Shown here piece after piece: positions 2,437-19,970 of a stretch of DNA of 35,477 nucleotides; the stretch's first letter is position 1; the number at the start of each line of letters is the position of its first letter. A program made the translations under genes and the position numbers. This DNA comes from Bacteroidales bacterium (GTDB lineage Bacteria > Bacteroidota > Bacteroidia > Bacteroidales > F082), in the NCBI GenBank assembly GCA_017630195.1, contig JAGBVS010000097.1, positions 1 to 35,477 on the forward strand, in the 5' to 3' direction. Under the pieces are notes generated by a model, which was not told the DNA's origin, did no database searches, and saw only the letters and a program-made list of their open reading frames with translations.

Positions 2437-2445
2437 ATCTTAAAA

Positions 2446-3606: not shown

Positions 3607-3612
3607 TACTTC

Positions 3613-6455: not shown

Positions 6456-8570
6456 ATGAATAGAATTCTTCAATTGTTATTATTAACATTATTTTTCTTT
6501 AGTTGCACATCTCACAAGACCGAAGTATCTTCTCCAGACAAGAATATTCGTCTTGCTTTCAACATTGACAATGAAGGCTTTATGTCATACAATATTAAAG
6601 TCAACGACAGCATTTTCATCGATGATTCTCAATTAGGCTTCGAGGCCAAAGACGGCTTGAATCTCAGCAATTCCTTCGAGATAATAAAGACAGAATTTTC
6701 TTCTAAAGACGAGACTTGGAACCAGATTTGGGGCGAAAACAAAACCATCAGAAACCATTATAACGAGATGGCGATTCACCTCGCAAACATCGACAGCACC
6801 TACCTTGTAATACGCTTCCGACTCTTCAACGACGGCCTCGGTTTCCGCTACGAATACCGCATCAAAGACACAGACAAAATAATTCTAACCGATGAACTAA
6901 CGACTTTCAACATAAAAGAAAACGGCGTTTCTTGGTCTATTCCAGCGAGTTTCGAGACTTACGAATTATTATATCGCACGCTACCTTTGAATGAAGTCGA
7001 AGATGCTAATACACCGTTTACTTTTAAGACTACAAGACTACAAGACTACAAGACTACAAGTCTATCAGTCAATGAGTCTATAAGTTCTGAGTCAGTGTCA
7101 GAGTCAGAGTCAGTGTCAATTTACGCCAGTATCCACGAGGCGGCATTGACGGATTTTCCGGAGATGACGTTGAGACTTCATCAGTCTAAAGATGAAAGGC
7201 TAAAGGCTAAAGGCAAAAGTCGGCAGTTTAAAGTTCAATTAGCTCCTTATCCCGACGGAAAGACAAAAGCCATCTTTGAAAAAGATAATTTTATAAGTCC
7301 TTGGCGTACAATACAGATTTCTGACAAAGCCGTCGGTCTGATAAATTCAAATCTCATCTTAAACCTCAACGAGCCTTGCGTTTTGGAAGGCGACCTTTCG
7401 TGGATAAGGCCGATGAAATATGTCGGAGTGTGGTGGGGAATGCATCTCGGCGTGGAGAGCTGGGTCATGGGCGACCGACACGGCGCTACAACAGAAAACG
7501 CCAAACGTTATATCGACTTCGCCGCCGACAATAATATCGACGCCGTTCTTTTCGAAGGATGGAACGAAGGATGGGACAGCTGGGGCGGACGTCAGAACTT
7601 CGACTTCACCAAAGCATACGCCGACTTCGACATTGATGAGATTATGCGTTATGCGAAAGAAAAAGACATTGAAGTCATCGGACACCATGAGACTGGCGGT
7701 AACATCATCAACTATGAAAATCAATTAGAAGAAGCTTATCGCTGGACCAAAGAGAAAGGCATCAACTGCGTCAAGACAGGTTACGCTGGAGGCCTACCCG
7801 ACAGACATAATCACCACGGACAACACAACGTTCGTCATTACAGAAAAGTCGTGGAGACAGCAGCGAGACATCATATCACGCTCGACGTACATGAGCCTAT
7901 CAAGCCGACAGGGATACGCCGCACCTACCCTAACATGATGACACGCGAGGGCGCACGCGGCATGGAATGGAACGCCTGGAGCGAGGGCAACCCGCCAGAA
8001 CATCATGTCATGCTGCCTTTCACACGACTGCTCGCCGGACCTATGGACTACACTCCCGGCACTTTCGACATCTTATTCGACAACACTCGTAACTCGCCTC
8101 TGCGTAAGAAATGGAACAGCAACGACAAAGGCAACAGCCGCGTCAACACCACACTCGCGAAACAGTTGGCGAATTGGGTAATACTGTATTCTCCGCTTCA
8201 GATGGCATCGGACATGATTGAGCATTACGAGGGACATCCTGCGTTTCAGTTTTTCCGCGACTTCAATCCCGACTGTGACTGGTCGGAGGCGCTTCAGGGC
8301 GAGCCTGGAGAATATGTAGCGATTGTGCGCCGAGCCGGAGAGGATTTCTTTTTAGGAGCGGCTACGAACGGCTCGGCGCGTGAAATCGAGATTCCTCTTA
8401 CGTTCCTAGAAAAAGGCAAATCTTACGAAGCGACGATTTATTCCGATGGCGACGACGCTCATTGGGAGACGAATCCTACCTCATATAAAATAGAAAAGAA
8501 GACAGTATCATCCCACGACACCTTATTTATTAAAATGGCAGCCGGCGGAGGATGCGCGGTGGTGTTTTAA
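6456..8570 (+). CDS. Glycoside hydrolase family 97 (SusB-like) lipoprotein
   Basis: This 704-residue protein begins with a lipoprotein signal ending FFFSC (Cys17), so it is probably anchored in the outer membrane or periplasmic face. The GH97 layout is clear: an N-terminal beta-sandwich (about 20-285) with LFNDGLGFRYEY, a central (beta/alpha)8 barrel with VKTGYAGG, DVHEPIKPTGIRRTYPN and REGARGMEWNAW, and a C-terminal beta domain. GH97 enzymes are exo-acting alpha-glucosidases or alpha-galactosidases; which one cannot be settled by eye. No SusC/SusD pair is adjacent. Residues about 190-221 and 243-257 are an unusual insertion made of repeats (KTTRLQDYKTT, then a Ser/Val/Glu run, then KDERLKAKGK) encoded by microsatellite DNA, directly before the conserved HEAALTDFPEMTL segment. 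The reading frame is intact. Confidence 0.92.
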   Translation: MNRILQLLLLTLFFFSCTSHKTEVSSPDKNIRLAFNIDNEGFMSYNIKVNDSIFIDDSQLGFEAKDGLNLSNSFEIIKTEFSSKDETWNQIWGENKTIRNHYNEMAIHLANIDSTYLVIRFRLFNDGLGFRYEYRIKDTDKIILTDELTTFNIKENGVSWSIPASFETYELLYRTLPLNEVEDANTPFTFKTTRLQDYKTTSLSVNESISSESVSESESVSIYASIHEAALTDFPEMTLRLHQSKDERLKAKGKSRQFKVQLAPYPDGKTKAIFEKDNFISPWRTIQISDKAVGLINSNLILNLNEPCVLEGDLSWIRPMKYVGVWWGMHLGVESWVMGDRHGATTENAKRYIDFAADNNIDAVLFEGWNEGWDSWGGRQNFDFTKAYADFDIDEIMRYAKEKDIEVIGHHETGGNIINYENQLEEAYRWTKEKGINCVKTGYAGGLPDRHNHHGQHNVRHYRKVVETAARHHITLDVHEPIKPTGIRRTYPNMMTREGARGMEWNAWSEGNPPEHHVMLPFTRLLAGPMDYTPGTFDILFDNTRNSPLRKKWNSNDKGNSRVNTTLAKQLANWVILYSPLQMASDMIEHYEGHPAFQFFRDFNPDCDWSEALQGEPGEYVAIVRRAGEDFFLGAATNGSAREIEIPLTFLEKGKSYEATIYSDGDDAHWETNPTSYKIEKKTVSSHDTLFIKMAAGGGCAVVF
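7026..7060 (+). repeat. 8-bp tandem repeat inside the GH97 gene
   Basis: The unit AAGACTAC occurs four times in a row plus a partial AAG. The unit length is not a multiple of three, so gain or loss of one unit would shift the reading frame; three units together keep it. Confidence 0.9.
7089..7118 (+). repeat. 6-bp tandem repeat inside the GH97 gene
   Basis: Five units of the form G(A/T)GTCA encode a Ser-Val/Ser-Glu run. The unit keeps the reading frame. The same GTCAGTGTCA word is found downstream of the gene at 16619-17245. Confidence 0.85.
7185..7219 (+). repeat. AAAGGC-type repeat words inside the GH97 gene
   Basis: The stretch repeats the word CTAAAGGC and ends GGCAAAAG, encoding a Lys-rich segment (KDERLKAKGK). 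The same word family appears between genes at 12911-12936, 15802-15825 and 19362-19390. Confidence 0.7.
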
Positions 8571-8703
8571 AACAACAATCCCTGGAAGAAGTTGCCGCCA
8601 GCATTGCCGTCGCTGTCTAGAATTGCCAACACCTGCTCGCAGAATGCAACCATAGGAAACTTTTTACTACGTAAAAACTTTTTGCAGATCTTCGAGTCTT
8701 TAG
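8571..8703 (-). pseudogene. Decayed fragment of a WG-protein N-terminal domain
   Basis: Read on the minus strand this stretch encodes LEDLQKVF, then after a small deletion and frameshift KKFPMVAFCEQVLAILDSDG followed by NAGGNFFQG. This lines up with residues about 145-184 of the intact 519-residue WG protein at 11210-12769 (LEDLQSVF, KYPMVASREQALSIHDSDG, KAGGNYFLG). In-frame stops (TAGTAA, between LEDLQKVF and KKFP) and the frameshift show it is not functional. It has no start and no flanking remains that I can recognise. It sits just downstream of the DUF262 pair and shows that this domain family has been duplicated and lost in the genome. Confidence 0.75.
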
Positions 8704-8704
8704 T

Positions 8705-9037
8705 CTAATCCAAAAACATTGATTCAAAATATTTATCGAAGAATGCCTGAATGTATTCCTCGTATTTGCGATTTATCGCATTCTCATCTGAATACTTACC
8801 TATTTGTTTCTGCCATCCAAGTATGAATGTCGAATTTATTTTCTGCAGGCAAACTCTTGGCGAACCATCCATTTCTGACTTCTTATCAAGTTCTGCTTGC
8901 TTACGTTCTTTGTACTTGCAAAGAGCTTCACCATATGTTTTTGTATCGTCATCTCCATACAAAGAAAACACCTCTTGTGCAATCTCACGGCACAACTTAC
9001 GTTGAGTTTCTATTAAATTTTCCATATTCTCCTTCAT
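8705..9037 (-). CDS. Small unknown protein paired with the DUF262 protein
   Basis: This is a 110-residue, highly charged, mostly helical protein with no signal peptide and no membrane segment. I do not recognise its family. It starts at an ATG 7 nt after the stop of the DUF262/HNH gene, so the two are almost certainly co-transcribed and probably act together. The centre has a KYKERKQAELDKKSEMDG stretch that could be a coiled coil. An alternative start at Met5 is possible. It may be a regulator, immunity factor or accessory subunit of the DUF262 protein; nothing in the sequence decides between these. Confidence 0.7.
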   Translation of the reverse strand: MKENMENLIETQRKLCREIAQEVFSLYGDDDTKTYGEALCKYKERKQAELDKKSEMDGSPRVCLQKINSTFILGWQKQIGKYSDENAINRKYEEYIQAFFDKYFESMFLD

Positions 9038-9044
9038 TTATATT

Positions 9045-10811
9045 CTAATTTTCTTCAACATTATCATCCACATATCCAACAACTTCCAACAATCTTTTTT
9101 TAAGCAAGGATTCCCTTTCTTTAATAAAAATCTTGAAATCCTTTATATCCAAGCTTACATTTTCAGGAATAAGCTGAAATTTCTTATCTATCTTATTTTT
9201 CTCAACCCATTCCTTCAATGAAGTGGCGTTTTTAGACTCATTGACATATCCATTTAGTAGCTGCAAATTAACCACAGAGTTGTAATTCGCTTTATCTTTA
9301 TAGAATTTGTAAGTCTCTTCATCCATGTCATCTTTTCTTCTAAGACCTGTGAAATAACTTTTCGGATGAAGATGATCTTTATGGAAACGCTTATTATTAT
9401 AATCGAGGTGAGCATACAGCAACGACAATATTGAATAGCAATAAGGATCGTCAATATCAGTATGCAACAAACTATCTATATAATCTGATGTAAGATATAA
9501 ATTTTTAGTAGGATTACCTTTGAACGCTTCTTTAATGTCTTCCAATGGAAAACCCTTCTCTTCAGTCTCATTCATGACACTTTTGATTTTTGTCAAAATT
9601 GTATCAGACTGACCGCCGAATACTTTTTTAAGCAAAGACAGGCAAAGCCACTTGCGAATCTGTTCTTTCTCGTCTTTATTGTAAGTAGGTTTTGTTATCT
9701 CGGTTTCAATTTCTTTTGTATATATGTAATAAGCAATAGGAATGACAGCGTTTTTTGATGTCAAGTTCGATTCGTTGAATCCCCACGATTTAAGCAAGTT
9801 GAATGCTGCGACAATAGAATCATCTATTCTATCCCAGTTATCCTCAAACTTTTTAATCATATCGACTTTAAAATTCTTTATCTGGAACTTGATATTGTCA
9901 TTAAACAAGAATAAACATGTCTTTAGAATAAAGTCAGTGTTTATTTTAAATCCACAATCATACACTTTCTTCTCCAGTTCCTCCATAGCTTTTCTTGCAT
10001 CCTTATCCTTGTTTTCCCATTGCGAAGTCGTTTTAGACATCAATAAGTCGGAGAAACTTAATTTTGTTCCGCCACTATTGGTTCTCACAAAAATATCCAA
10101 TACCTCTTCTTCTTTTTGCGAATCTTCCTCATAATAATTTATGATAGCATCTTTGAATACTATCCTATATAATTTTTTTAAAGTTTTACTCGCAAATCTA
10201 TAATTTGCAAAATTGTCTTTCGTCAAATTATGTTCTTCGAAATAATCTGAAACATCTTCTTCTTCCTTATAAAAAAGGATATCATTTACCTTAAACCATA
10301 GAGACTCTGGATTTTTTTCCTTTTCTTTCTTCAAATCACTTTTTGACAGAAACGCAAAATTATAAAGCATATTACGCTCATCTTCTTCAAGCAACTCTTT
10401 TGAAATATCTAAATACAGATGTTTCTCTTCAGTAATATTCTTTCGAGGCACTTTACATGAATAACTGCCACACAATCCAAGATATATACTTGTAAGTCGT
10501 TGTTGACCATCTATTATAGCCTCAAATTCACCTAATGCTTTAGTATCTATATGTTTGTTATTTTTTCCATTCAACTCATCGTATGTTCTAAGGAACTCAT
10601 AAAACATCAGGTTTTCTTTAATTTCATCATCTGCGACTTTCCAGAACATAAAAGAATTTATAGGATAGCCTCTCATTATACTATCAAAAAGAGCTTCAAT
10701 CTGTTCTGTTGTCCATACATATTTACGTTGAATAGCAGGAATCAAATACTTATTTACAGCGATATTATTTAAAACCTCTTTTATTGTAATTGCATTTTTA
10801 TATGAACCCAT
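9045..10811 (-). CDS. DUF262 / HNH protein (GmrSD-type), likely defence nuclease
   Basis: This 588-residue protein has an N-terminal DUF262 domain with the signatures IPAIQRKYVWTTEQIEALFD (24-43) and EAIIDGQQRLTSIYLGL, whose DGQQR at 101-105 is the ParB/Srx-like nucleotide site. The C-terminal third contains an HNH-like DUF1524 motif HKDHLHPKSYF near residue 490. The same domain pair makes up GmrSD-type (type IV) modification-dependent restriction enzymes, which cut phage DNA carrying modified cytosine using NTP hydrolysis. The length is normal for a fused single-chain version, and both key motifs are intact. It is the first gene of a two-gene unit with the 110-residue protein. Not every DUF262 protein is a restriction enzyme, so the defence role is likely rather than proven. 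Confidence 0.85.
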   Translation of the reverse strand: MGSYKNAITIKEVLNNIAVNKYLIPAIQRKYVWTTEQIEALFDSIMRGYPINSFMFWKVADDEIKENLMFYEFLRTYDELNGKNNKHIDTKALGEFEAIIDGQQRLTSIYLGLCGSYSCKVPRKNITEEKHLYLDISKELLEEDERNMLYNFAFLSKSDLKKEKEKNPESLWFKVNDILFYKEEEDVSDYFEEHNLTKDNFANYRFASKTLKKLYRIVFKDAIINYYEEDSQKEEEVLDIFVRTNSGGTKLSFSDLLMSKTTSQWENKDKDARKAMEELEKKVYDCGFKINTDFILKTCLFLFNDNIKFQIKNFKVDMIKKFEDNWDRIDDSIVAAFNLLKSWGFNESNLTSKNAVIPIAYYIYTKEIETEITKPTYNKDEKEQIRKWLCLSLLKKVFGGQSDTILTKIKSVMNETEEKGFPLEDIKEAFKGNPTKNLYLTSDYIDSLLHTDIDDPYCYSILSLLYAHLDYNNKRFHKDHLHPKSYFTGLRRKDDMDEETYKFYKDKANYNSVVNLQLLNGYVNESKNATSLKEWVEKNKIDKKFQLIPENVSLDIKDFKIFIKERESLLKKRLLEVVGYVDDNVEEN

Positions 10812-10870
10812 AATCTGTTTTTATTACATTGTTAGATAATTTTGCAATTTTATTTATCAGAAAAAACTTA

Positions 10871-10896
10871 AAAACCTCAGAATATTCTGAGGTTTT
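10871..10896 (-). terminator. Rho-independent terminator
   Basis: A perfect 26-bp palindrome with CCTCAGAATATTCTGAGG at its core is followed on the minus strand by a T-rich run (rc of 10861-10869). It lies 27 bp past the stop of the 70-residue gene at 10924 and would end the WG-protein transcript. Confidence 0.8.
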
Positions 10897-10923
10897 GGGA
10901 TTTAATACAGAATTAAATCAAAA

Positions 10924-11136
10924 TCATAATTTTGTTATATCAAAACTTCCCGACACTGATGGGAGATAACATTCTCCACCAAATCTCTGTTCGATAGTTG
11001 CCAAAACATTATTAGGTTGAGGTGCAGAACAAGATTTTTCTACATGTTCAAAACTCATACCTTTTGCTATGAGGACTTTACCTGTACCTTTTACTGTAAT
11101 GTCTTTCTTTGCTGTTAATCTAAATCCGTATGCCAT
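10924..11136 (-). CDS. Small unknown protein next to WG-repeat gene
   Basis: This is a 70-residue protein without signal peptide or membrane segment. It has a beta-rich look (FRLTAKKDITVKGTGKVLIA) followed by KGMSFEHVEKSCSAPQPNN, and a C-terminal SVSGSFDITKL. I do not recognise the family with certainty. It starts 73 bp after the stop of the 519-residue WG protein and is followed by a strong terminator, so it is the last gene of that transcript and probably works with it. The intact ATG, the adjoining terminator and the plausible amino-acid make-up argue that it is real. Confidence 0.65.
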   Translation of the reverse strand: MAYGFRLTAKKDITVKGTGKVLIAKGMSFEHVEKSCSAPQPNNVLATIEQRFGGECYLPSVSGSFDITKL

Positions 11137-11209
11137 AACTATAATTTTTTAAAAATAAAGCCTACTCTATTAAGGATTTTCGGCTTCCTCCCATTATTTT
11201 ATAATACGA

Positions 11210-12769
11210 TTAATCAAGGTCGATATCAACATAAATTTCAAATCCATCGAAATCTATTAGAGCTTTATCTTCACACCAACTATCAAGCTGTGTTTTGTAA
11301 ACAGCATTTGCCAACCAGAAGAAAATCATTGCAGGAATGCCTTTGAAAGTTATATCATATAACTCTTGGACTTCGTATGCTACAACATATTTTTCCATAA
11401 AGCGATAAATTTCAGTCTGTGTAAGACTTAACTCATCGACATTTATTTTAATTTTTCTTTCACATTTTCCATAGAAGAACTGTTTTATAGTTTCTATTTC
11501 CTCTTCTTCTTTCCATTTACCCAGCTCAACTGTTACCTGTTTCTGATATTCATCTTCTTGATCATCATAATCATACATTGCATATATTCTTTCTCCGTCA
11601 TTATTGAAGAAGCAATCGAAGAAATTAATCGTTTCTTCTTTTTTATCTTGTTCCTTTACAAAATTACCATCTTTGTCAATATAAATCCAAGCGCCATCAT
11701 CTGTCAGCACCTCTGCCATGCCTTTTTCAAAGTTACAAGCATAATCATATTGACAAGGGATGACTTCTTTACCAGTTTTATCCATAAACCCGTACTTACC
11801 ATCAACAACGATTCTTGCCAAACCCTCATAGAAAATTTTCCAGTCTTTAGGATTGCCTATACAGTCATATTTGAATGGTATGATTTCATTTCCTGTTTGG
11901 TCGATAAATCCATATTTCCAGCCCTTTTTCACTTTTGCCATACCATTACTGAAATCATCAGCTTTGTCATATATGCATGGAATTACAACTTTACCTGTTT
12001 CATCAGCAAAACCATACTTGCCATCTTCTTTAACAACATTCAGAACATTCTCTTGAATTTCCGCCACTACAGTTCCTTCATTTTCCTCTACTTCACCAAC
12101 GACTTCAAACTCATAACCAAGTTCTTTTACTTTTGCCATAAATGGATCGAAGAAAGTCTTTGAAAAATATTTCCATGCGAATGCTTTGCCGCCTCTTACG
12201 TCGATGTCGTCGCCTTCGCCAAGGAAGTAGTTGCCGCCTGCTTTGCCGTCGCTATCATGAATTGACAATGCCTGCTCGCGTGATGCAACCATAGGGTATT
12301 TTTGAACTTCACCGAAAACGCTCTGGAGGTCCTCGAGTTTTGCTTCTGGATGCTGGTCAGCATAATATCTCACAACTGCCTGGCAGAAACGATTCTTTTG
12401 GGTATATTCTCCACCGTTGAAACGATAAGTTACCTTTGCTCTTTTACCTCTTTCCTTGACAGGAGCCATATTGACGAGGTCGCACAATTTCATATCATTT
12501 TTAGCAAGCTTCTTATTATCTGGAGATGCAATCTGCACCTTGATACCATAGAGTTCTTCCATGAAGTTTTCGAAAACGCCCACCAAGTCTTGGTCACCGC
12601 ATTCAAATTCGCCACCTTTAGCATCACCTTCTCTAATTGTTGCCAAGGTAGCTTCATCGTCAGCAAAATGATTTTTATAATATACTCTTAATACTGCGCC
12701 GTATGACTCAAAGAAATTCTCTTTAAGAGTCTTGACCTTCATATTACCACTTACTTTGAATTGTGCCAT
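11210..12769 (-). CDS. WG-repeat protein with a two-part N-terminal module
   Basis: This 519-residue protein has no signal peptide. Residues 1-100 form a domain (MAQFKVSGNMKVKTLKENF..., IKVQIASPDNKKL) of unknown function seen in my recollection in many Bacteroidales proteins. Residues about 120-222 form a second domain with KYPMVASREQALSIHDSDG and ELGYEFEVVG. Residues about 243-375 hold three to four WG repeats (DGKYGFADETGKVVIPCIYD, KYGFIDQTGNEIIPFKYD, GKYGFMDKTGKEVIPCQYD, WIYIDKDGN). The last ~140 residues are acidic and unlike anything I know. WG repeats are beta-rich binding units; a catalytic role is not evident. Upstream lies a 10-bp-periodic repeat shared with two other loci in the cluster. 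A decayed copy of its second domain sits at 8571-8703. Confidence 0.82.
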   Translation of the reverse strand: MAQFKVSGNMKVKTLKENFFESYGAVLRVYYKNHFADDEATLATIREGDAKGGEFECGDQDLVGVFENFMEELYGIKVQIASPDNKKLAKNDMKLCDLVNMAPVKERGKRAKVTYRFNGGEYTQKNRFCQAVVRYYADQHPEAKLEDLQSVFGEVQKYPMVASREQALSIHDSDGKAGGNYFLGEGDDIDVRGGKAFAWKYFSKTFFDPFMAKVKELGYEFEVVGEVEENEGTVVAEIQENVLNVVKEDGKYGFADETGKVVIPCIYDKADDFSNGMAKVKKGWKYGFIDQTGNEIIPFKYDCIGNPKDWKIFYEGLARIVVDGKYGFMDKTGKEVIPCQYDYACNFEKGMAEVLTDDGAWIYIDKDGNFVKEQDKKEETINFFDCFFNNDGERIYAMYDYDDQEDEYQKQVTVELGKWKEEEEIETIKQFFYGKCERKIKINVDELSLTQTEIYRFMEKYVVAYEVQELYDITFKGIPAMIFFWLANAVYKTQLDSWCEDKALIDFDGFEIYVDIDLD

Positions 12770-12841
12770 AATGTTTAGTTTTTAACGATTGTACATTTTG
12801 TTTAAGACTGCAAACTTCACAAAAGCGATTTAGTTTTCAAA

Positions 12842-12861
12842 AGTTCTTTTTGGTTCTTTTA
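12842..12861 (-). promoter_or_regulatory. Tandem 10-bp direct repeat upstream of WG gene
   Basis: Two adjacent 10-mers, AGTTCTTTTT and GGTTCTTTTA (plus-strand reading), lie 73-92 bp ahead of the WG start codon. The same arrangement occurs at 15754-15773 and, with three units, at 18019-18048. It is a candidate operator for the regulator at 17388-17969. No good TAnnTTTG box is visible for this gene. Confidence 0.5.
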
Positions 12862-12936
12862 ATAGTCTACAGACAACGGGCAACAGACAACAGACTTCAC
12901 CCATTTTTTTTACCTTTTGTCTTTAATCTTTTGCCA
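12862..12936. repeat. Intergenic low-complexity repeat words
   Basis: This stretch contains CAGACAAC words repeated three times and AAAAGG/TTTTGCC-type words. About 45 bp beginning at 12836 are nearly identical to 15748-15795, so the operator and the repeat words have been copied together. Confidence 0.65.
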
Positions 12937-12941
12937 TAAAA

Positions 12942-12967
12942 AAATGATGCCCCGAAAGACATCATTT
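12942..12967 (-). terminator. Rho-independent terminator of the large WG gene
   Basis: An AAATGATG/CATCATTT stem with a 10-nt loop is followed on the minus strand by a run of T. It lies 43 bp past the stop of the gene at 13011. Confidence 0.75.
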
Positions 12968-13010
12968 CTTACTTCAATTAATAAAATCATTCATCTCTGA
13001 TATTTCAACA

Positions 13011-15023
13011 TCAATTGTTTTTAGGAGTGATACCGCATTTCTTGCCTTCTCTTACAACTATGTATTCATCACCTATTGTGATGTCATCGTAACTAAAAGG
13101 AACCACGAGTTCGTCATTCTTGTTTATCAATCCATATTTTCCGTCAATAGAGACTTTTGCCAAACCGTCCTTGAATTCTGCGGCGCTAAAATATTTACAA
13201 GGAATAACTTCGTTGCCGGCCATATCTATATAACCATATCTGAATTTAGAGAACACCGATGCGAAACCTTCGCTATAACTTCCTAGGCCATCATATTTGC
13301 ATGGAACTGCTTCGTTTCCTTCTTTGTCGATGAATCCGTATTTGTTATTTGACATAACAGAAGCCCTGCCCTCACTGAAAGACGACACTTCATCATATCT
13401 GCAAGGAATGACTTCGTTTCCGTTCTTGTCGACGAATCCCCATTTGCCATCAATTTTTACGGCAGCCAGACCTTCGCTGAAAGACATTGCATCGTCATAT
13501 TTGAACGGAAGCACTTCCTTGTCGGAAGCATCTATGAATCCCCATTTGCCATCAATTTTTACAGCTGCGAGACCTTCGCTGAAATCGCGAGCAGCAATAT
13601 ATTTCAACGAAACAACCTCATTGCCTTCTTTGTTGATGAAGCCGTACATTTTTTCTTTGACAGAACAAACCCTAGCCACGCCATCACTAAAACGATGAGC
13701 TTCTCTATAGTTACAAGGTATTACCACATTACCATCCTTGTCGATAAAACCATAACTGCCTTTTCTAACAATGGCCTTTCCATCAACAAACATATCAGCG
13801 GCATCAAAACCACCTTTACCACCATAAACATAATCAGTGGTAAGCACCTCATTGCCATCTTTGTCGATAAATCCATAGTACTTACCCTTCACACTTACAA
13901 GACCTTCGCTGAAAGTTCCGATTTCTGAATACTTTAAAGGCGCCTTAACCTTCTTGACCTTAGATTTCTTTTCTGGTTCTTTTGCTGTTTCTGACGGAAC
14001 GCCAATAAGGGCGCACTTGGAAGATTTTTCCACAAATACAAGTCCGTTCTCAAATATGTGAATAAAACTATATATCACAGGTAAAATCTCATTACCTTTT
14101 GTATCATAAAGTCCGAATTTTTTTCCAGCAGAATATGATACAGATACAAACATACCATTACTTATATTCTGTATAACTTCATGTTTACAAGGAACAACTT
14201 CTTCGCCTTTTTCATTGACCAATCCTCTCAAATTATTGATTGTCACTACAACATAACCATTAAAGAATTGGATGATATTTGGGCTGTAAACATTTTGAAC
14301 AGCTATTGTGTCATATTTGAAAGGTGTTATTGCATTACCATCTTTGTCGACGATTCCGTATTTGCCGTCTCGCTCAACGACTTCATATTCTTCGAAAACA
14401 GATTTGGTTTCAGTTACTTCAGGCTGCGACACTTCATTGCCTTCTTTATTTATCCAGCATTTATTTCCGTCTATTTCGACAGATGCCACACCATTCTCAA
14501 ACTTGGAAATGGATTTATATTTACAAGGAAGTATCTCTTTTCCATCTTTATCCAACAAGCCAGACAAGTCACTTTTTTTTACACAAATCAAACCTTCATG
14601 AGAAAAGCCATACAAAGTTATACCATCATATTCAAAAGGTGCGACCCACTTATCCTCCTTGCTGAGACAAGCATATTTGCCATCGCTATTTTTAAACACA
14701 ACAAAACCATCTTGGTGTTGTCCCCAAATAGCGCTTCCCATTTGAGGATGAGGGAACAAATATTTAGGCGCAACCAGTACTTCATCCTTGCTAATGATTC
14801 CCCAACCTTTGCCATTTATGTAAACAGGAGCTATTCCATCTCTAAATTCACCAGCTTTATCATACATACATGGAACTACCTCATTACCGTAGCAGTCCAC
14901 AAAACCATACTTACAAAGAACTGCGGGACTTGTTGTATCATTTTTACCTACCATCACCAATTCTTCACCACGCACATTATCTACATAATCATATTTAAAA
15001 TCTAAAACGGGATTTTTTTCCAT
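13011..15023 (-). CDS. Large WG-repeat array protein
   Basis: This 670-residue protein is made almost entirely of WG repeats, about 14-16 of them, with the pattern GKYGFIDKDGNEVIPCKYD then a linker ending in FSEGLA-V. In the C-terminal half the repeat period is exactly 34 residues (102 bp), and two neighbouring units are nearly identical in DNA. There is no signal peptide, membrane segment or catalytic motif; residues about 340-370 form a Lys-rich linker (EPEKKSKVKKVKAPLKYSEI). Such arrays fold as beta-rich surfaces for protein or ligand binding. It is probably cytosolic. It is flanked by its own terminator (12942-12967) and by the terminator of the FISUMP gene upstream, so it is transcribed alone. 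No TAnnTTTG promoter is evident ahead of it. Confidence 0.88.
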   Translation of the reverse strand: MEKNPVLDFKYDYVDNVRGEELVMVGKNDTTSPAVLCKYGFVDCYGNEVVPCMYDKAGEFRDGIAPVYINGKGWGIISKDEVLVAPKYLFPHPQMGSAIWGQHQDGFVVFKNSDGKYACLSKEDKWVAPFEYDGITLYGFSHEGLICVKKSDLSGLLDKDGKEILPCKYKSISKFENGVASVEIDGNKCWINKEGNEVSQPEVTETKSVFEEYEVVERDGKYGIVDKDGNAITPFKYDTIAVQNVYSPNIIQFFNGYVVVTINNLRGLVNEKGEEVVPCKHEVIQNISNGMFVSVSYSAGKKFGLYDTKGNEILPVIYSFIHIFENGLVFVEKSSKCALIGVPSETAKEPEKKSKVKKVKAPLKYSEIGTFSEGLVSVKGKYYGFIDKDGNEVLTTDYVYGGKGGFDAADMFVDGKAIVRKGSYGFIDKDGNVVIPCNYREAHRFSDGVARVCSVKEKMYGFINKEGNEVVSLKYIAARDFSEGLAAVKIDGKWGFIDASDKEVLPFKYDDAMSFSEGLAAVKIDGKWGFVDKNGNEVIPCRYDEVSSFSEGRASVMSNNKYGFIDKEGNEAVPCKYDGLGSYSEGFASVFSKFRYGYIDMAGNEVIPCKYFSAAEFKDGLAKVSIDGKYGLINKNDELVVPFSYDDITIGDEYIVVREGKKCGITPKNN

Positions 15024-15101
15024 AACTATAAAATTTTAATTGTATTTTTATTTTTTTGCCCAACTACTTCCAGCGAGTTGTTTTATTCATTTAAATCAAA
15101 A

Positions 15102-15129
15102 AAAGGCAAACATCATTGTGCTTGCCTTT
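15102..15129 (-). terminator. Rho-independent terminator of the FISUMP gene
   Basis: An AAAGGCAA/TTGCCTTT stem (15102-15109 with 15122-15129) is followed on the minus strand by seven T. It lies 19 bp past the stop at 15148. Confidence 0.75.
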
Positions 15130-15147
15130 ATATTTTTAAAATTTATT

Positions 15148-15702
15148 TTATTCAGAAACTGGGCGTATTGTTACGCCATAAAAACGTTCAGCCATTCTAA
15201 TAGAACCACCCAACTTCATAGTATCAAGTATATATGCATCTTTAACACCTAACGCCTCAGAGCTCCAGTAGTTACCTCGTACTCCCATCCAAGAGTTTTT
15301 CTTTGTAGTTCCACTACGAGCAAAAGCTGCTGGAAAGAAAATACTATTGCCATTAGGACCAGTTACTTTATTACCAGTATGACCCTCAAGTTCAGTCCAT
15401 TCCCACTTACAATTATTTATCAATTCTTCAAATTCAGCTCTCGTTGGAATACGCCATGTAGCACCCATAGCAACACGAGCAGCATCGTATTGGGGATTCG
15501 CTGAGATATTACCGATTGATTCAGCAGGAACACCTTGCGTAACACTATTATCATCCTTATAAGAAGATTTCTTATCGATTTCACCCCAAGAATAATAATT
15601 GCCATATTTTTCTGGAGACTTTGCTCCAAGATTACAGTTTGCCCATTTTAATCCTGATGGCAATCCTAAATCTACATATTCAAAACCATTTATCTTTTCC
15701 AT
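15148..15702 (-). CDS. FISUMP-type (Fib_succ_major-like) cytosolic protein
   Basis: This 184-residue protein shows the pattern of the Fibrobacter succinogenes major paralogous domain: VDLGLPSGLKWANCNLGA near the N-terminus, YGNYYSWGE, GATWRIPTRAEFEELIN in the middle, FFPAAFARSG, then NYWSSEA and VTIRPVSE at the end. The domain has a C-type-lectin-like fold and usually sits on secreted Bacteroidales proteins. Here it is the whole protein and there is no signal peptide, so it is probably cytosolic, which is unusual. The start ATG at 15702 gives exactly the family N-terminus. The upstream region carries the same 10-bp direct repeat as the WG and kinase/regulator genes. No reverse transcriptase or template repeat is nearby, so it is not a diversity-generating element target here. 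Confidence 0.8.
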   Translation of the reverse strand: MEKINGFEYVDLGLPSGLKWANCNLGAKSPEKYGNYYSWGEIDKKSSYKDDNSVTQGVPAESIGNISANPQYDAARVAMGATWRIPTRAEFEELINNCKWEWTELEGHTGNKVTGPNGNSIFFPAAFARSGTTKKNSWMGVRGNYWSSEALGVKDAYILDTMKLGGSIRMAERFYGVTIRPVSE

Positions 15703-15753
15703 AATTCACAATTTATTTTTTGCAAAATAAAAGTTTTAAAAGATTTTTTCAAA

Positions 15754-15773
15754 AGTTCTTTTTAGTTCTTTTA
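15754..15773 (-). promoter_or_regulatory. Tandem 10-bp direct repeat upstream of FISUMP gene
   Basis: AGTTCTTTTT and AGTTCTTTTA (plus-strand reading) lie 52-71 bp ahead of the start codon. A weak -7-like TTATTTTG is at 15729-15722, which would put the repeats just upstream of the polymerase site. Confidence 0.5.
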
Positions 15774-15860
15774 ATAGTCTACAGACAACAGACTTCATCC
15801 ATACTTTTGCCTTTTGCCATTAGTCTATAATTATGAATTATGCATTATGAATTATGAATT
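15774..15860. repeat. Intergenic low-complexity repeat words
   Basis: CAGACAACAGAC, TTTTGCCTTTTGCCATTAG and four ATTATGAATT/ATTATGCATT-like words follow one another. The last type also forms the start of the acetyltransferase gene at 19370-19942. The stretch runs up to the stop of the gene at 15862. Confidence 0.75.
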
Positions 15861-15861
15861 C

Positions 15862-16320
15862 TCATTTATACTCTCTCTGTATATCGTGGAATTCATTATG
15901 CAGTTCGATGGCATTGTCTTCAACCTTAATCTTTTTCAAGAGGAAAGTACGGATTAACGGCATCAGTTCAACGACAGACATTTCGTTGAAAGACAGGAAC
16001 AATGTTGAGTTCAACTCATATTCCTCCGCCACTTCCTTATAAATATATTCCATTCCAGTTTCGAAGAACATAAAACCATCAACGCCATCCATAAAACCAT
16101 CTTCTTTATCTTCGCGCCACAACAAGGCCACTCCATACATTGATTCATCGTCTTCATCAGGAGAATTGAAACAATAAAGCGAATTGTATTTGTCGCCATT
16201 CGACTTGGTAATCACATCTATGTGTGATGAGAAATAACATTTTTTTTCATGATGGAAGTTGTCGCGAATATATTTCGACACTTCATTGACTTTTTCTTCA
16301 GTTTCTGTTTTCATGGTCAT
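15862..16320 (-). CDS. Unknown 152-residue protein
   Basis: This is an acidic cytosolic protein with no signal peptide or membrane segment. I do not recognise its family. Visible features are a run of Phe/Tyr-rich strands (DKYNSLYCFNSP, MYGVALLWRED, DGFMFFETGMEYIY) and a C-terminal helical part (VELMPLIRTFLLKKIKVEDN). Two starts, ATG at 16320 and at 16314, are possible. It lies in a row of same-strand genes between the FISUMP gene and the 58-residue gene. Repeat words (GACAACAGTCAACAGAC) precede it at about 16332-16348. Its place in the WG/kinase cluster suggests a shared role, but no operator repeat is seen upstream. Confidence 0.65.
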   Translation of the reverse strand: MTMKTETEEKVNEVSKYIRDNFHHEKKCYFSSHIDVITKSNGDKYNSLYCFNSPDEDDESMYGVALLWREDKEDGFMDGVDGFMFFETGMEYIYKEVAEEYELNSTLFLSFNEMSVVELMPLIRTFLLKKIKVEDNAIELHNEFHDIQREYK

Positions 16321-16385
16321 TTATTTTTTAAGGACAACAGTCAACAGACATTTATCACATCTTTTGACTTTATCCTTATATTTTT

Positions 16386-16562
16386 TCATTTCAGTGCATA
16401 TATTTTTTCTATCGCCGCTAATGTTATTCTTCTGGATTCTTCCACACTCATATATCCACTTTTCAGAATAGATTCACTCAATATGGTTTTTACCTCACCG
16501 TCCTCAACAAACACCCTGCTTCCATTGATGATAGTTTCGTTTAAGATTTCATCACTATCCAT
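16386..16562 (-). CDS. Short unknown protein (58 residues)
   Basis: An ATG at 16562-16560 opens a 58-codon frame ending TGA at 16388-16386. The product is acidic at the start (MDSDEILNETIINGSRVFVE) and helical at the end (SVEESRRITLAAIEKIYALK). It fills the gap between two same-strand genes and begins 56 bp after the stop of the 208-residue gene. The fit with the gap and the balanced protein-like composition support a real gene. The pattern of a short beta start and a helical end is reminiscent of small antitoxin or adaptor proteins, but I cannot name a family. Confidence 0.55.
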   Translation of the reverse strand: MDSDEILNETIINGSRVFVEDGEVKTILSESILKSGYMSVEESRRITLAAIEKIYALK

Positions 16563-16618
16563 AATTCTAAATTATTGTTTTTTAATCCAATATCATCTGT
16601 CTGTGTCAATAGTCAGTG

Positions 16619-17245
16619 TCAAATAAAAACCTCGCCATGAGCGTCTCTTGACATCCTTTCACTCAGGCTTTGAGGTCGAGGATTGACGTAACAACCCATG
16701 AATGCATATTCATCATCTTTACATTTCATAGTGTTATGATGCAAGTCGTTCCAATATTTTTTTGTAAAATCATTGAATTCCACGCCATCACATTCTGACT
16801 CCAAGGTTCCATCTTTCTTGAAAATTTTAGGTTTTCCATCAGGTTCTTGAAACATGAAAGTAGTCTGATTGTACTTCTCCGCCAGTTCAACACCGAATTC
16901 AAACAATTTATGCAAATCACCGACTTCATCATTTTTGTTAAAATGATGTATGCAATTAAATATGACAAAACTCTTTTCGTACATATACGCACCCTTACTA
17001 TTTTCCATAAGACCATAGACAGGCATATATGCATATTTCAATAACTTAAGCAAAGAAATCATCTCACGGATTCTTTCAATATTCAATTCGTCATCTTCAC
17101 AACTCTCACATGGACTTACGATTATGAAACCATTTGCAGAATATTTATCGAAGACACTTTTCGCCATATTATCGTTTATGCTTACAAGCGGCGCATTGTT
17201 AAAAGTATCACGATAATCGTTTATAAAATTGCGATATTTTTCCAT
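16619..17245 (-). CDS. Unknown 208-residue cytosolic protein
   Basis: This protein has no signal peptide or membrane segment. It contains FIIVSPCESCED near residues 35-47, LLKYAYMPVYGLMEN near 68-82, YEKSFVIFN near 88-97, and TTFMFQEPDGKPKIFKKDG in the second half. The PVYG and EP-DG motifs recall a group of uncharacterised gut Bacteroidales proteins, but I cannot name it. It follows the terminator of the regulator gene and has an AGTTC/GAACT inverted repeat upstream (17265-17288), which may be a regulator site. GTCAGTGTCA-type repeat words lie directly past its stop. Confidence 0.65.
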   Translation of the reverse strand: MEKYRNFINDYRDTFNNAPLVSINDNMAKSVFDKYSANGFIIVSPCESCEDDELNIERIREMISLLKLLKYAYMPVYGLMENSKGAYMYEKSFVIFNCIHHFNKNDEVGDLHKLFEFGVELAEKYNQTTFMFQEPDGKPKIFKKDGTLESECDGVEFNDFTKKYWNDLHHNTMKCKDDEYAFMGCYVNPRPQSLSERMSRDAHGEVFI

Positions 17246-17264
17246 ACTTCATTATCTTGTTTTA

Positions 17265-17288
17265 AGTTCTATTATATATAATTGAACT
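17265..17288. promoter_or_regulatory. AGTTC/GAACT inverted repeat upstream of 208-residue gene
   Basis: A 24-bp near-perfect palindrome has arms AGTTCTATTATA and its complement, with one internal mismatch pair. The AGTTC half-site resembles the unit of the direct repeats at 12842, 15754 and 18019. It lies 20-43 bp ahead of the start codon at 17245. Confidence 0.45.
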
Positions 17289-17316
17289 ACATCAAAACTT
17301 GACATTTATTGACAAA

Positions 17317-17354
17317 AAAACGCATCAATATTTTTCATTATATTAATGCGTTTT
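17317..17354 (-). terminator. Rho-independent terminator of the regulator gene
   Basis: AAAACGCAT pairs with ATGCGTTTT, and the stem extends through CAATAT/ATATTA with one G-U. The minus strand ends in a T run. It lies 34 bp past the stop at 17388. Confidence 0.78.
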
Positions 17355-17387
17355 CTATTTAAACCTCAACTTGTTGTCTTGTAGTCT

Positions 17388-17969
17388 TTATAAAGTCTCT
17401 TTCTCTGTCTTCTCCACTATCTTCAAGCCGCCGTTTTTTCCAGCGACAAACATCGCAAACGTCTGTCCATCAACAGTCAGCTCATCAAGATATAGAGATT
17501 GTCCTTCTATAAAGAAAGAACATAAAAAAGTGCTGTTATGCTGTAACTTGGTATTTCTGCAATCTAAAATTTTATATTTATTATCACCAAAATATTCCGC
17601 TATACATTCTCTATCTGGATTCCAGGTAAAATAAACCTTCTCCCCTACTTTTAAATTCTTACTATGAATACATTTCTGCAGAATCTCCTCCGACTGCTCA
17701 TTAGGATCTCCGTTGTTACAATTCACAAAATCATCCCAATCATTGTATCCGACAAATCTCGCCAAAATCGACAATGTATGAAAACGAACAGTATCGTAGC
17801 CATCTATATACCCCCAAATTCGTTTCAACGTACTTTCCGAAATAGTCTCTCTGCATCTCTCATACACAATACCAGAAAGATATGTAAAGTCAGAAGGTGT
17901 CTTAATCTTACGAGGAATAGAGTTCTCCACCAATTGCCTCAATCTGATAATATTATTATTACTTTTCAT
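17388..17969 (-). CDS. Small HTH-like regulator divergent from the Ser/Thr kinase
   Basis: This 193-residue protein has an N-terminal helical region (about 1-85) with a helix-turn-helix look: TISESTLKRIWGYIDGYD followed by TLSILARFVGYNDWDDF. This pattern, as I recall it, is common in Bacteroidetes proteins encoded next to small sensory or kinase genes. Residues about 105-185 form a beta-rich domain (VGEKVYFTWNPDRECIAEYF, LYLDELTVDGQTFAMF) that may bind a ligand. It is transcribed away from the kinase, with a TATTTTTG -7 box at 17996-17989 only 20 nt from the start. Three 10-bp direct repeats lie between the two promoters and overlap its -33 zone, which suggests self-control. No exact family name can be given. 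Confidence 0.68.
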   Translation of the reverse strand: MKSNNNIIRLRQLVENSIPRKIKTPSDFTYLSGIVYERCRETISESTLKRIWGYIDGYDTVRFHTLSILARFVGYNDWDDFVNCNNGDPNEQSEEILQKCIHSKNLKVGEKVYFTWNPDRECIAEYFGDNKYKILDCRNTKLQHNSTFLCSFFIEGQSLYLDELTVDGQTFAMFVAGKNGGLKIVEKTEKETL

Positions 17970-17988
17970 ACACTGCCTTTCGTTTTTG

Positions 17989-18091
17989 CAAAAATAAGCA
18001 GTTTTTCACATAATATTTGGTTCTAATTGGTTCTATTTAGTTCCGACTTTAGCAACATGTAGACTTTTAATCGACTTATTTCCTATCTTTG
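17989..18091. promoter_or_regulatory. Divergent promoters with a triple 10-bp direct repeat
   Basis: The minus-strand -7 box TATTTTTG (17996-17989) serves the regulator and the plus-strand box TATCTTTG (18084-18091) serves the kinase. Between them are three adjacent 10-mers: GGTTCTAATT (18019-18028), GGTTCTATTT (18029-18038) and AGTTCCGACT (18039-18048). The one-helical-turn spacing is typical of an operator read on one face of DNA. The kinase leader is about 10 nt. Confidence 0.6.
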
Positions 18092-18105
18092 TAAAAAAAA
18101 TTACG

Positions 18106-19344
18106 ATGAACAGCAACGATATTTCAAGTTCGGGTTTTGTGTTTCAAAATCATCATTCAGAAACACAGTCTTCTTTCTACGACATAAAAGAAATTGAAAC
18201 CAAAGGATACAGCTGTCTCCATACTGCAACATATCTTGGAAAGAAAGTCATCTTGAAAAGCCTTAAACCTGAATTCAAAAATGAGAGATTCTATCAAGAC
18301 TTACTCAAAAAAGAATTTGAAATATCACACTCATTAGACCATCCTAATATCGTCAAGACTATCGACTTCCAAAATATTCCTAATCTCGGAAATTGCATCG
18401 TGATGGAATATATCGAGGGTCTGACACTGAAAGAGTTTATTGAAGGTCGCAGAGTCATAGGGTCGCATAGTCGCAAAGCAAAAAATGTTTATGATAAGAT
18501 TTTCCTCGAATTGCTTGATGCGATGGAGTATTTTCACTCTAAACAAATCATTCATCGTGATTTAAAGCCAAGTAACATTCTTATCACAAACAACGGCAAC
18601 AACGTAAAAATCATCGATTTCGGTCTTTCCGACACCGACGATTACATCATCCTTAAACAAGCCGCCGGCACTAGAAAATACGCTGCGCCGGAACAATTGA
18701 TTCCAAACAACATAATAGATTGCCGCGCCGACATCTATTCTTTAGGAATCATATTAAAAAATAACTTCCCGAAGTCATATCAGAAAATCGCCGACAAATG
18801 CGCTCAGCAAGATAGAGAGAAACGCTTCTCTTCCGTAAATGAAATAAGAAATTACATCAAGAAAAAGAAAATCACAAAGACAAGCATCGTCATTTCTACA
18901 ATTCTGACTCTTCTCTTCGCCATGTCATTCGTCATCACGAAATATTATATCTCGGGCAAGACATATAACACAAATGAGAAAGAAATTTTAGCAGAAGCCA
19001 CACAATATATTGACGCACAAATTGCAACAATAAAAATCAAAATTGAAGAAGGACATGTTTCAAATATTGACGAATTCAACGCAATTGCCGAGACATATCA
19101 AAATCTCATAAGCACAGATTATTTGAAATGGGCAGAACAGATTCCATCGGACATGCCCTTTTACAATGATTTCATAACATATTGGAACACATATCTCAGT
19201 GAAAAAGCCAAAGATATTTTCACGCCATACACCGATTGGTACAGAGAATCATTCCAATTGATTTTCAACAATCTAAAACCTGAAGAAGAAATCATTGCGA
19301 ACCCGAAGAATCCGAGTTTATTTATTATTAGGACTAAGGAATAA
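18106..19344 (+). CDS. Membrane-anchored Ser/Thr protein kinase (Hanks type)
   Basis: This 412-residue protein has an N-terminal kinase domain (about 30-250), one membrane helix (about 259-280) and a ~130-residue C-terminal domain that would face the periplasm. The key residues are visible: Lys51 in VILKSLK, HRDLKPSN at 150-157, DFG at 171-173 and APE at 194-196, so it should be active. The Gly-rich loop is reduced (ETKGYSCLHT). The segment at about 114-126 (GRRVIGSHSRKAK) is an extra insertion encoded by repeat-like DNA (18445-18479). The C-terminal domain is not PASTA or another repeat I know. The gene is divergent from the small regulator and shares a control region with it. Substrates may include the cytosolic proteins of this cluster; that is inference. 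Confidence 0.88.
   Translation: MNSNDISSSGFVFQNHHSETQSSFYDIKEIETKGYSCLHTATYLGKKVILKSLKPEFKNERFYQDLLKKEFEISHSLDHPNIVKTIDFQNIPNLGNCIVMEYIEGLTLKEFIEGRRVIGSHSRKAKNVYDKIFLELLDAMEYFHSKQIIHRDLKPSNILITNNGNNVKIIDFGLSDTDDYIILKQAAGTRKYAAPEQLIPNNIIDCRADIYSLGIILKNNFPKSYQKIADKCAQQDREKRFSSVNEIRNYIKKKKITKTSIVISTILTLLFAMSFVITKYYISGKTYNTNEKEILAEATQYIDAQIATIKIKIEEGHVSNIDEFNAIAETYQNLISTDYLKWAEQIPSDMPFYNDFITYWNTYLSEKAKDIFTPYTDWYRESFQLIFNNLKPEEEIIANPKNPSLFIIRTKE
18445..18479 (+). repeat. Repeat-derived insertion in the kinase gene
   Basis: The words GGTCGCAGAGTCATAG and GGTCGCATAGTCGCAAAG follow each other in frame and encode a basic loop between the beta-5 region and the helix before HRD. Such an insertion is not part of the kinase fold core. 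Confidence 0.6.
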
Positions 19345-19390: not shown

Positions 19391-19942
19391 TATCACAAGG
19401 TGCCACATTTTGTGTCCAAGGAAATCTTTGACATTCATTCTTTCGAATCCAACTGATTTATAGAGACGTTCTGCGTCAGGGTTTTCAAAATCGACCAATA
19501 GTCCCAGGTTTTTTCCATATTCATTGAGAGCTATTTCTTTCACAGCGAGAATCAGTTGCGCACCGATTCCACGACTGCGATATTCTGGCAATACGGCAAG
19601 ACTGTCGAGATAAAATTCAGAGGCGTCGGTCTCATCAGCGATTTGCATCTCTTTTTCTGTATGTTTTAAAATAACTTCAAGAGTAGCTTTTCTTAGATAA
19701 TGTAACTTAGCGCCGTCGTATGCTACCACTGCACCAACGGCATTGCCATCGATTTCAGCTACAAAAACGTTGCGATAACTATATTGCGTGTCTTCCAAAA
19801 GAGCGATTTCCTCAAATACTTTCATATAATTGTCGCCGCCGTAAAATATTGCTGTTTCCTCCCCTATCGCCATAGCGACGACTGAGGCTATGAGAGGCGC
19901 ATCGGATTTGGTAGCTTTCCTTATATTTAATTCATAATTCAT
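19370..19942 (-). CDS. GNAT-family N-acetyltransferase
   Basis: This is a 190-residue GNAT protein with the usual opening NIRKATKSDAPLIASVV, a central strand FYLDSLAVLPEYRSRGIG, the acetyl-CoA loop YRSRGIGAQLILAV at about 127-140 and a final DAERLYKSVGFERM. The ATG at 19942 is chosen; the frame is open further to a TTG at 19969, but the extra residues are only repeat-encoded. Even with the ATG start, the first residues (MNYEL) come from an ATTATGAATT repeat, and the last (RQMAND) from another repeat, so both ends were probably remodelled by repeat insertion. It starts 31 bp after the TIGR04076 gene and is likely co-transcribed with it. Confidence 0.85.
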   Translation of the reverse strand: MNYELNIRKATKSDAPLIASVVAMAIGEETAIFYGGDNYMKVFEEIALLEDTQYSYRNVFVAEIDGNAVGAVVAYDGAKLHYLRKATLEVILKHTEKEMQIADETDASEFYLDSLAVLPEYRSRGIGAQLILAVKEIALNEYGKNLGLLVDFENPDAERLYKSVGFERMNVKDFLGHKMWHLVIRQMAND

Positions 19943-19970
19943 AATGCACAATTCATAATTAATTGTCAAT
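19925..19970. repeat. ATTATGAATT repeat words at the 5' end of the acetyltransferase gene
   Basis: Four related words (AATTATGAATT, GTGCATTATGAATT and variants on the minus strand) follow one another; the ATG of one is the likely start codon. The same words occur at 15828-15859. Confidence 0.75.

Follow-up and report, generated by a model that had tools for sequence, protein, structure and literature searches.

The window analysed here, the whole 35,477-nucleotide (nt) contig JAGBVS010000097.1 of a Bacteroidales bacterium, contains a gene island in which the gene for a putative membrane Ser/Thr kinase (KIN) stands divergent to that of a candidate DNA-binding regulator (REG), next to genes for two WG-repeat proteins (WG1 and WG2), a FISUMP-type protein and several small open reading frames (ORFs; Table 1). 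We propose, with a probability of roughly 0.7, that in Bacteroidales KIN and REG work together as a pair dedicated to signal transduction, with a tiny local regulon. KIN would read an envelope or extracellular signal through an exchangeable part beyond the membrane and phosphorylate REG, perhaps at the linker serine S93, the first candidate site. REG is predicted to bind two or three head-to-tail RGAMC half-sites, which with their 10-bp period would lie on one helix face and abut the -33 element. Bacteroidetes promoters follow a -33/-7 consensus, and REG likely activates, rather than represses, promoters with a -7 TTTG box. Through feedback REG would belong to its own regulon, as would, probably, KIN; the rest would be one to three nearby target operons, here WG1 with a 70-amino-acid (aa) ORF, and the FISUMP gene. 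The WG and FISUMP products would serve in the cytosol as binding or scaffold proteins whose synthesis follows the signal. The pair, its operators, the promoter geometry, the local sites and the kinase fusions are read directly from the DNA and its translations, and the gene arrangement points first to REG as the target of KIN.

KIN matches the Pfam Pkinase family (E 8.1e-38). The catalytic lysine and the HxDxKxxN, DxG and PE residues of an active Hanks-type Ser/Thr kinase are all kept, and K51, E70, H150, D152, K154, N157, D171, G173, P195 and E196 are invariant in 65 kinase sequences, the window's included. Hydropathy analysis gives one strong hydrophobic stretch, at residue 260. A kinase domain, one membrane segment and a C-terminal part beyond it are also the layout of the PASTA-type kinases PknB and PrkC. 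KIN, however, scores 139 bits against a curated cut-off of 450 for NF033483, no PASTA domain occurs in the Pfam matches of the 65 homologues, the sensors are of WG, FISUMP-like or leucine-rich type, and a regulator gene lies alongside. In PADLOC the kinase domain resembles those of the anti-phage kinases mad6 (E 1.6e-41), PD-T4-6 (E 1.1e-39) and Stk2 (E 4.8e-26), but the mad6 match and most PD-T4-6 matches extend over nothing more than the generic kinase domain. No mads genes were seen, and KIN is not stand-alone.

REG has no match in Pfam, NCBIfam, PADLOC or PHROGs, and its relatives were collected with a dedicated profile (A1), for which 80 of 115 confirmed loci were kept. Nearly all come from uncultured Bacteroidales of gut and rumen. 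In 67 of the 80, a KIN homologue falls within the flanking DNA stored with REG, and among the 55 KIN ORFs that could be scored for orientation against the called REG, 37 were divergent, 10 tandem and 8 convergent. Judged by this gene neighbourhood, KIN and REG are a conserved pair. The linker residue corresponding to S93 is serine in 77 of the 84 alignment rows that have a letter there. REG has no match in phages, and the plasmid collection gave a single weak partial one (E 1e-4), which covers 43% of the protein and comes from a Prevotella record of 1.77 Mb. Beside two distant KIN/REG pairs stand genes of other kinds: ThiF, radical SAM/SPASM/PqqD and amidohydrolase domain genes in L045 (1209-6461), and JAB, FtsK- and FtsA-like proteins in L175 (471-7362). 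These may belong to a protein- or peptide-modifying operon.

REG matches were found in 36 of 247 genomes of the class (own included), mostly as the N-terminal domain alone heading larger proteins. Five such proteins were read by eye, revealing a P-loop-like motif in two and a membrane segment in one. This arrangement fits, and does not prove, the function of the domain as a DNA-binding head, and we consider an XRE-like register for it plausible. In loci L197, L199 and L201 the REG N-terminal domain heads proteins of ~850 aa that show a P-loop-like motif, and a protein of 418 aa that has a membrane segment; these may be one-component regulators that belong to REG's new family. The comparison of REG with HTH_3 did not reach significance. 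Among solved structures no significant relative was detected for REG (best E 0.18, a DnaI chain; UHRF1 chains 0.36), the N-terminal domain of WG1 (WG1N), the FISUMP protein or WG2.

Three sites in the window carry AGAACnnnnnAGAAC repeats with a 10-bp period: upstream of WG1, upstream of FISUMP, and between REG and KIN. The first two read AGAACyaaaaAGAAC on the minus strand, and the third has three half-sites. Each is followed by a -7-type TTTG box, at 28 nt for WG1 and FISUMP and 27 nt for REG. The 10-bp period and a TTTG at 26-28 nt, which are among the features by which we define the proposed kinase-regulator module, are thus present at all three. The preliminary description had held that such repeats link three transcripts. 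That claim stands: the sites are genuine, recur in relatives, mostly with the same spacing to TTTG, and join the WG1, FISUMP and REG transcripts, with KIN attached divergently.

In the host genome (2.74 Mb, 84% complete; the island is on contig C75) the bare 17-mer pattern has four matches, three of them the island sites, against two for the reversed control. A two-mismatch search gave no excess (11 matches, control 23). The composite pattern of two half-sites, 26-28 nt and TTTG matches six times: three matches are the island sites and three lie inside long ORFs (contigs C51, C61 and C212), against one for the reversed control. It is only through this composite that chance repeats are disfavoured in the genome itself, the bare 17-mer not being rare there while the composite singles out the window sites; chance repeats were rejected on the reversed controls and the promoter spacing. 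Since the only intergenic matches to the composite are those of the island, the regulon of this genome, within the assembled part and within the reach of the composite pattern, is probably the island. The fourth 17-mer match (C56:12596) was treated as chance; it lies at the edge of an array of clustered regularly interspaced short palindromic repeats (CRISPR) and is not among the composite matches. By eye, that region (C56, locus L047, ~6500-12966) seems to hold a Cas9-length gene and further cas-like genes, with the CRISPR array just after the match.

The same geometry recurs outside the host. Within 90 bp upstream of REG, the operator core is present in 30 of 68 distinct sequences compared with 3 of 68 reversed ones (25 of 62 compared with 3 after removal of near-duplicates); genes in the fetched loci were called by a simple ORF script, some starts are wrong, and some REG upstream regions are therefore misplaced. 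A weight matrix built from the REG upstream sites, spacer not included, yielded 109 distinct sites in the window and the 80 loci, of which 83 have TTTG at 26-28 nt (reversed, 0 of 21). As the matrix excludes the spacer, the spacing at sites away from REG (43 of 59) is an independent check. Across 80 genomes of the genus, the operator variant AAGGACYAAMAAGGACY has 34 sites in 25 genomes, with one match for the reversed control; in the 35 genus genomes checked for both, it occurs in 11 of 23 REG-positive and 0 of 12 REG-negative genomes (P 0.003). In L042 (REG at 1146-1751), the 100 bp upstream of REG contain GTACC half-sites with the 10-bp period unchanged, and this variant suggests that operator specificity drifts and geometry stays. 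The distance between operator and KIN start is ~48-50 bp in several relatives, where the operator may extend into the KIN promoter. This position would suit a REG that acts as a repressor relieved by KIN, a reading we regard as quite unlikely: the target sites end before -33, the usual place for an activator.

Operons behind these sites, taken as co-directional ORFs less than 250 nt apart, vary between relatives. FISUMP homologues follow operators in L072, L106, L114 and L118, a WG protein in L061 and L062 (with identical operators, and possibly close kin), and leucine-rich-repeat proteins in L093 and L108. A recurrent cassette consists of WG1N proteins of ~100-120 aa, a protein combining WG1N with a second domain (domain X), an 86-aa protein, an OmpA-type protein (PADLOC ZorB, E 2.4e-5), a KAP ATPase with domain X (PifA, E 1.6e-31) and a UzuA-like protein (E 3.5e-63). 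It is found, in full or in part, behind operators in L060, L068, L074, L077, L097 and L104. Single members also occur: the OmpA-type gene alone in L091 and L098 (near-identical), UzuA alone in L086 and the 86-aa gene alone in L084. For 30 of the 34 genus-wide sites the locus was read, by eye; WG1N heads the operon in four (L141, L142, L149 and L163), two of which have the same sequence. Many operator-driven genes have no family match.

WG1 itself has both WG1N and domain X in common with the cassette, and its residues 1-219 are 52% identical, over 219 aa, to a protein of 225 aa that L035 encodes ~7.5 kb away from KIN. WG1N was surveyed with profile A2, of which WG1 is a member, in 20 of 28 REG-positive genomes (the eight left out had mostly weak matches) and 20 of 32 REG-negative ones. 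It is present in 8 of the former, own included, and in none of the latter (P 0.0016, or 0.0033 with the own genome excluded), and by locus five of eight WG1N loci lie within 20 kb of REG.

These cassettes raise the possibility of an inducible anti-phage or conflict programme, in which KIN would respond to a damaged envelope or an attaching phage, REG would turn on a cassette of defence genes and WG1 would be this genome's fused version of that cassette. In relatives one operator does precede WG1N, UzuA, KAP ATPase and OmpA-type genes co-directionally, and we take UzuA, from its PADLOC label, to mark the anti-phage system Uzume. A candidate defence gene also adjoins the island: at 8705-10811 stand a GmrSD/DUF262-type protein (PADLOC HEC-05, E 2.6e-197) and a 110-aa ORF. 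HEC-05, however, lies behind a terminator-like hairpin and has no homologue among the ORFs of the 80 REG loci; it and the kinase are the only matches among ten window proteins compared with PADLOC. No UzuA, KAP or nuclease gene follows a window operator, UzuA being confined to the relatives' cassettes, so that the gene diagnostic of Uzume is missing from the island, and the WG, FISUMP and leucine-rich targets elsewhere do not resemble defence. We consider this programme rather unlikely as an account of the window.

The variety of targets is matched by that of the kinases. In the KIN homologues of L172 and L175 the kinase domain is followed by WG repeats that pass the Pfam cut-off; a FISUMP domain is fused to 2 of the 65 kinases (L101, E 7.2e-35; the second is presumably L102, close kin of L101 with 501 of 527 residues identical), and BspA-type leucine-rich repeats (LRR_5) to three, among them L123 and L126. 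The C-termini of 19 large kinases (700-900 aa) match the FISUMP family with an hhalign probability of 92% (E 6.3e-7), the FISUMP link being visible only by such profile-profile comparison and by Pfam on L101. Kinases of at least 700 aa are found at only 1 of 17 cassette loci, as opposed to 5 of 6 loci with FISUMP alone and 13 of 42 others (cassette vs rest, P 0.014; three loci with split or partial kinases dropped), and the sole cassette locus with a large kinase has a second, short-kinase pair on the same contig. This association, together with secreted leucine-rich-repeat/InlB-type targets behind operators and secreted FISUMP targets in other loci, would agree with an adhesion or surface programme, in which kinases with FISUMP-like, WG or leucine-rich sensors control binding proteins whose domains work, in the window, inside the cell. 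Such a programme seems unlikely here. The window KIN belongs to the short-kinase, cassette class, and WG1, WG2 and the FISUMP protein have no export signal: none has a hydrophobic N-terminus, WG2 showing one moderate internal stretch (1.70 at residue 313).

Several observations weigh against the proposed pair and regulon. REG matches no known DNA-binding family, and its N-terminal domain compared with the HTH_3 proteins of its own genome gave P 0.031 and a probability of 1.6%. No KIN ORF was found at 13 of the 80 REG loci, a contig end accounting for some and not all; of five REG homologues from farther afield, four lack a neighbouring KIN homologue, and the fifth has only a weak kinase match (E 2.2e-9) ~5 kb off. 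The strict operator core is missing within 90 bp from 38 of the 68 REG upstream regions. WG2 has no operator of its own and is a member by position only. As for the sensors, the large kinases have no Pfam FISUMP match, and a direct FISUMP profile search against the kinases also found none; the L101/L102 domain reaches a profile-comparison probability of 13% with the window-type FISUMP family and 0.4% with the large kinases. The FISUMP-like sensors may therefore be several families.

Gene nearness gives evidence both ways; the WG and Lcl_C counts cover the same 20 REG-positive genomes as the WG1N survey. Outside the own genome, 5 of 38 WG genes lie within 10 kb of REG where 0.54 are expected, but Poisson values for nearness treat clustered, syntenic genes as independent and so overstate it. 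Four of the five, the kinase itself among them, belong to one region common to three genomes, and the genes around the fifth are similar; the WG genes near REG reflect few independent events. Lcl_C matches, hand-counted, fall within 10 kb of REG in 3 of 109 cases against ~1.5 expected, and are not enriched. The preliminary description had named, as a check, the co-occurrence of the kinase/regulator pair with WG and FISUMP genes elsewhere; operators do precede WG, FISUMP and WG1-type genes in relatives, but the nearness of FISUMP genes is not above background. Those genes are common, with 16 Lcl_C matches in the host genome alone, as would be expected if the island were a chance neighbourhood of unrelated genes. 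We judge that explanation very improbable given the operator geometry, the control scans, the kinase fusions and the WG1N co-occurrence; moreover, the only WG matches in the assembled host genome are the two of the island.

Read from right to left on the minus strand, the island runs REG, the 208-, 58- and 152-aa ORFs, FISUMP, WG2, WG1 and the 70-aa ORF, with KIN divergent on the plus strand (Table 1). All genes named in the preliminary description were recovered by ORF and family searches, and its statement that the structural proteins carry no export signal agrees with the hydropathy of WG1, WG2 and FISUMP. Its view of the island as one unit survives in part. WG1, FISUMP and REG/KIN share the operator, but WG2 and the 208-, 58- and 152-aa genes have none, a hairpin splits FISUMP from WG2, and the membership of these four genes is not supported. 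Hairpins lie 3' of REG, FISUMP, WG2 and the 70-aa gene, which leaves WG2 and the three small genes unlinked to an operator. The region has five terminator-like sites where shuffled sequences give 4.2. The 70-aa ORF is probably the second gene of the WG1 operon.

Table 1. Features of the island, with positions in the window.
Feature	Position	Strand	Description
KIN	18106..19344	+	412 aa; kinase domain ~37-221; hydrophobic stretch at 260; ~130 aa past stretch
REG	17388..17969	-	193 aa; N-terminal and C-terminal domain; candidate DNA-binding regulator of no known family
WG1	11210..12769	-	519 aa; WG1N (1-98), domain X (~100-218), WG repeats
70-aa ORF	10924..11136	-	73 nt 3' of WG1
WG2	13011..15023	-	670-aa WG-repeat protein
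FISUMP/Lcl_C-type protein	15148..15702	-	184 aa
Small ORFs of 152, 58 and 208 aa	15862..17245	-	Between FISUMP and REG
Operator of REG/KIN	18016..18044	-	Three half-sites with a 10-bp period; towards REG, TTTG at 17989-17992, 27 nt downstream
Operator of FISUMP	15755..15769	-	AGAACTAAAAAGAAC; TTTG at 15723-15726, 28 nt downstream
Operator of WG1	12843..12857	-	AGAACCAAAAAGAAC; TTTG at 12811-12814, 28 nt downstream
Terminator-like hairpin, FISUMP/WG2 gap	15102..15129	-	
17-bp hairpin 3' of REG	17315..17356	-	T-rich on both strands
Terminator-like hairpin 3' of 70-aa ORF	10871-10896		

WG1 and WG2 match PF14903 at E 2.8e-32 (three stretches) and 4.1e-132 (13 stretches), respectively. The FISUMP protein, which we take to be kin to C-type lectins, matches TIGR02145 and PF07603 (Lcl_C), each at E 1.7e-6 and below the curated cut-offs; its 28.9 bits against a TIGR02145 cut-off of 41.65 mark it as related but divergent. 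The 208-aa ORF has sub-threshold matches only (E 0.0025 and 0.0028), the 70-, 152- and 58-aa ORFs gave no convincing family in the library scans, and none of the four small ORFs has a homologue among the ORFs of the 80 REG loci at E 1e-4. An AT-rich inverted repeat of 33 nt (97% complementary; 15828-15860 and 19929-19961) brackets the stretch from the 152-aa gene to the kinase and is possibly a mobile-element or intergenic repeat. Farther off, at 332-5319, Fe-only hydrogenase large-subunit domains occur in two proteins, of which one also has a PAS domain; they adjoin a CoA-binding, putatively DNA-binding (Rex-like) protein.

Other Ser/Thr kinases are likewise known to alter transcription through a regulator, as in PknH-EmbR of M. 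tuberculosis and Pkn8/Pkn14-MrpC of Myxococcus. There embR and pknH are neighbours, and a kinase gene beside a regulator gene is not without precedent; here, in contrast, the pair is conserved together with its operator across many species, and REG belongs to a different family. The histidine-kinase two-component systems offer a second likeness, a membrane sensor kinase with its own DNA-binding partner (for REG, binding is predicted) and a local regulon. KIN, however, is a Ser/Thr kinase with a Hanks fold, REG showed no receiver domain, and family scans of the window proteins and the kinases detected neither histidine kinases nor receiver domains. Tentatively, the family might be to Ser/Thr kinases what the two-component system is to histidine kinases: its membrane kinase would exchange sensors of WG, FISUMP-like or leucine-rich type but keep a single regulator, from a new DNA-binding family, and the local cassette turned on would be exchangeable too, one branch being an inducible anti-phage cassette and WG1 derived from it. 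FISUMP/Lcl_C (DUF1566) proteins are named among the variable targets of diversity-generating retroelements in a passage of PMC4159848. The window protein differs in having no export signal and a kinase-linked operator, and no reverse transcriptase was noted among the 20 window proteins scanned, in which none was specifically searched for. The open-access literature in PubMed Central yielded no description of a kinase-WG-FISUMP system, in line with the preliminary description, which knew of none with such a make-up.

The operator-promoter pattern is specific enough for a regulon search by sequence alone. The proposed pair gives the WG and FISUMP families, which are common in these Bacteroidales and have no known function, a regulatory context that bears on the timing of their synthesis. 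Candidate anti-phage genes are also connected in this way with a putative envelope-sensing kinase. A 2018 review (PMC6213207) describes, in the passage concerned, Ser/Thr kinase systems as lacking dedicated transcription factors. A clean counter-example to that view, and a tractable model, would be a kinase that has a regulator and an operator to itself and a listable regulon.

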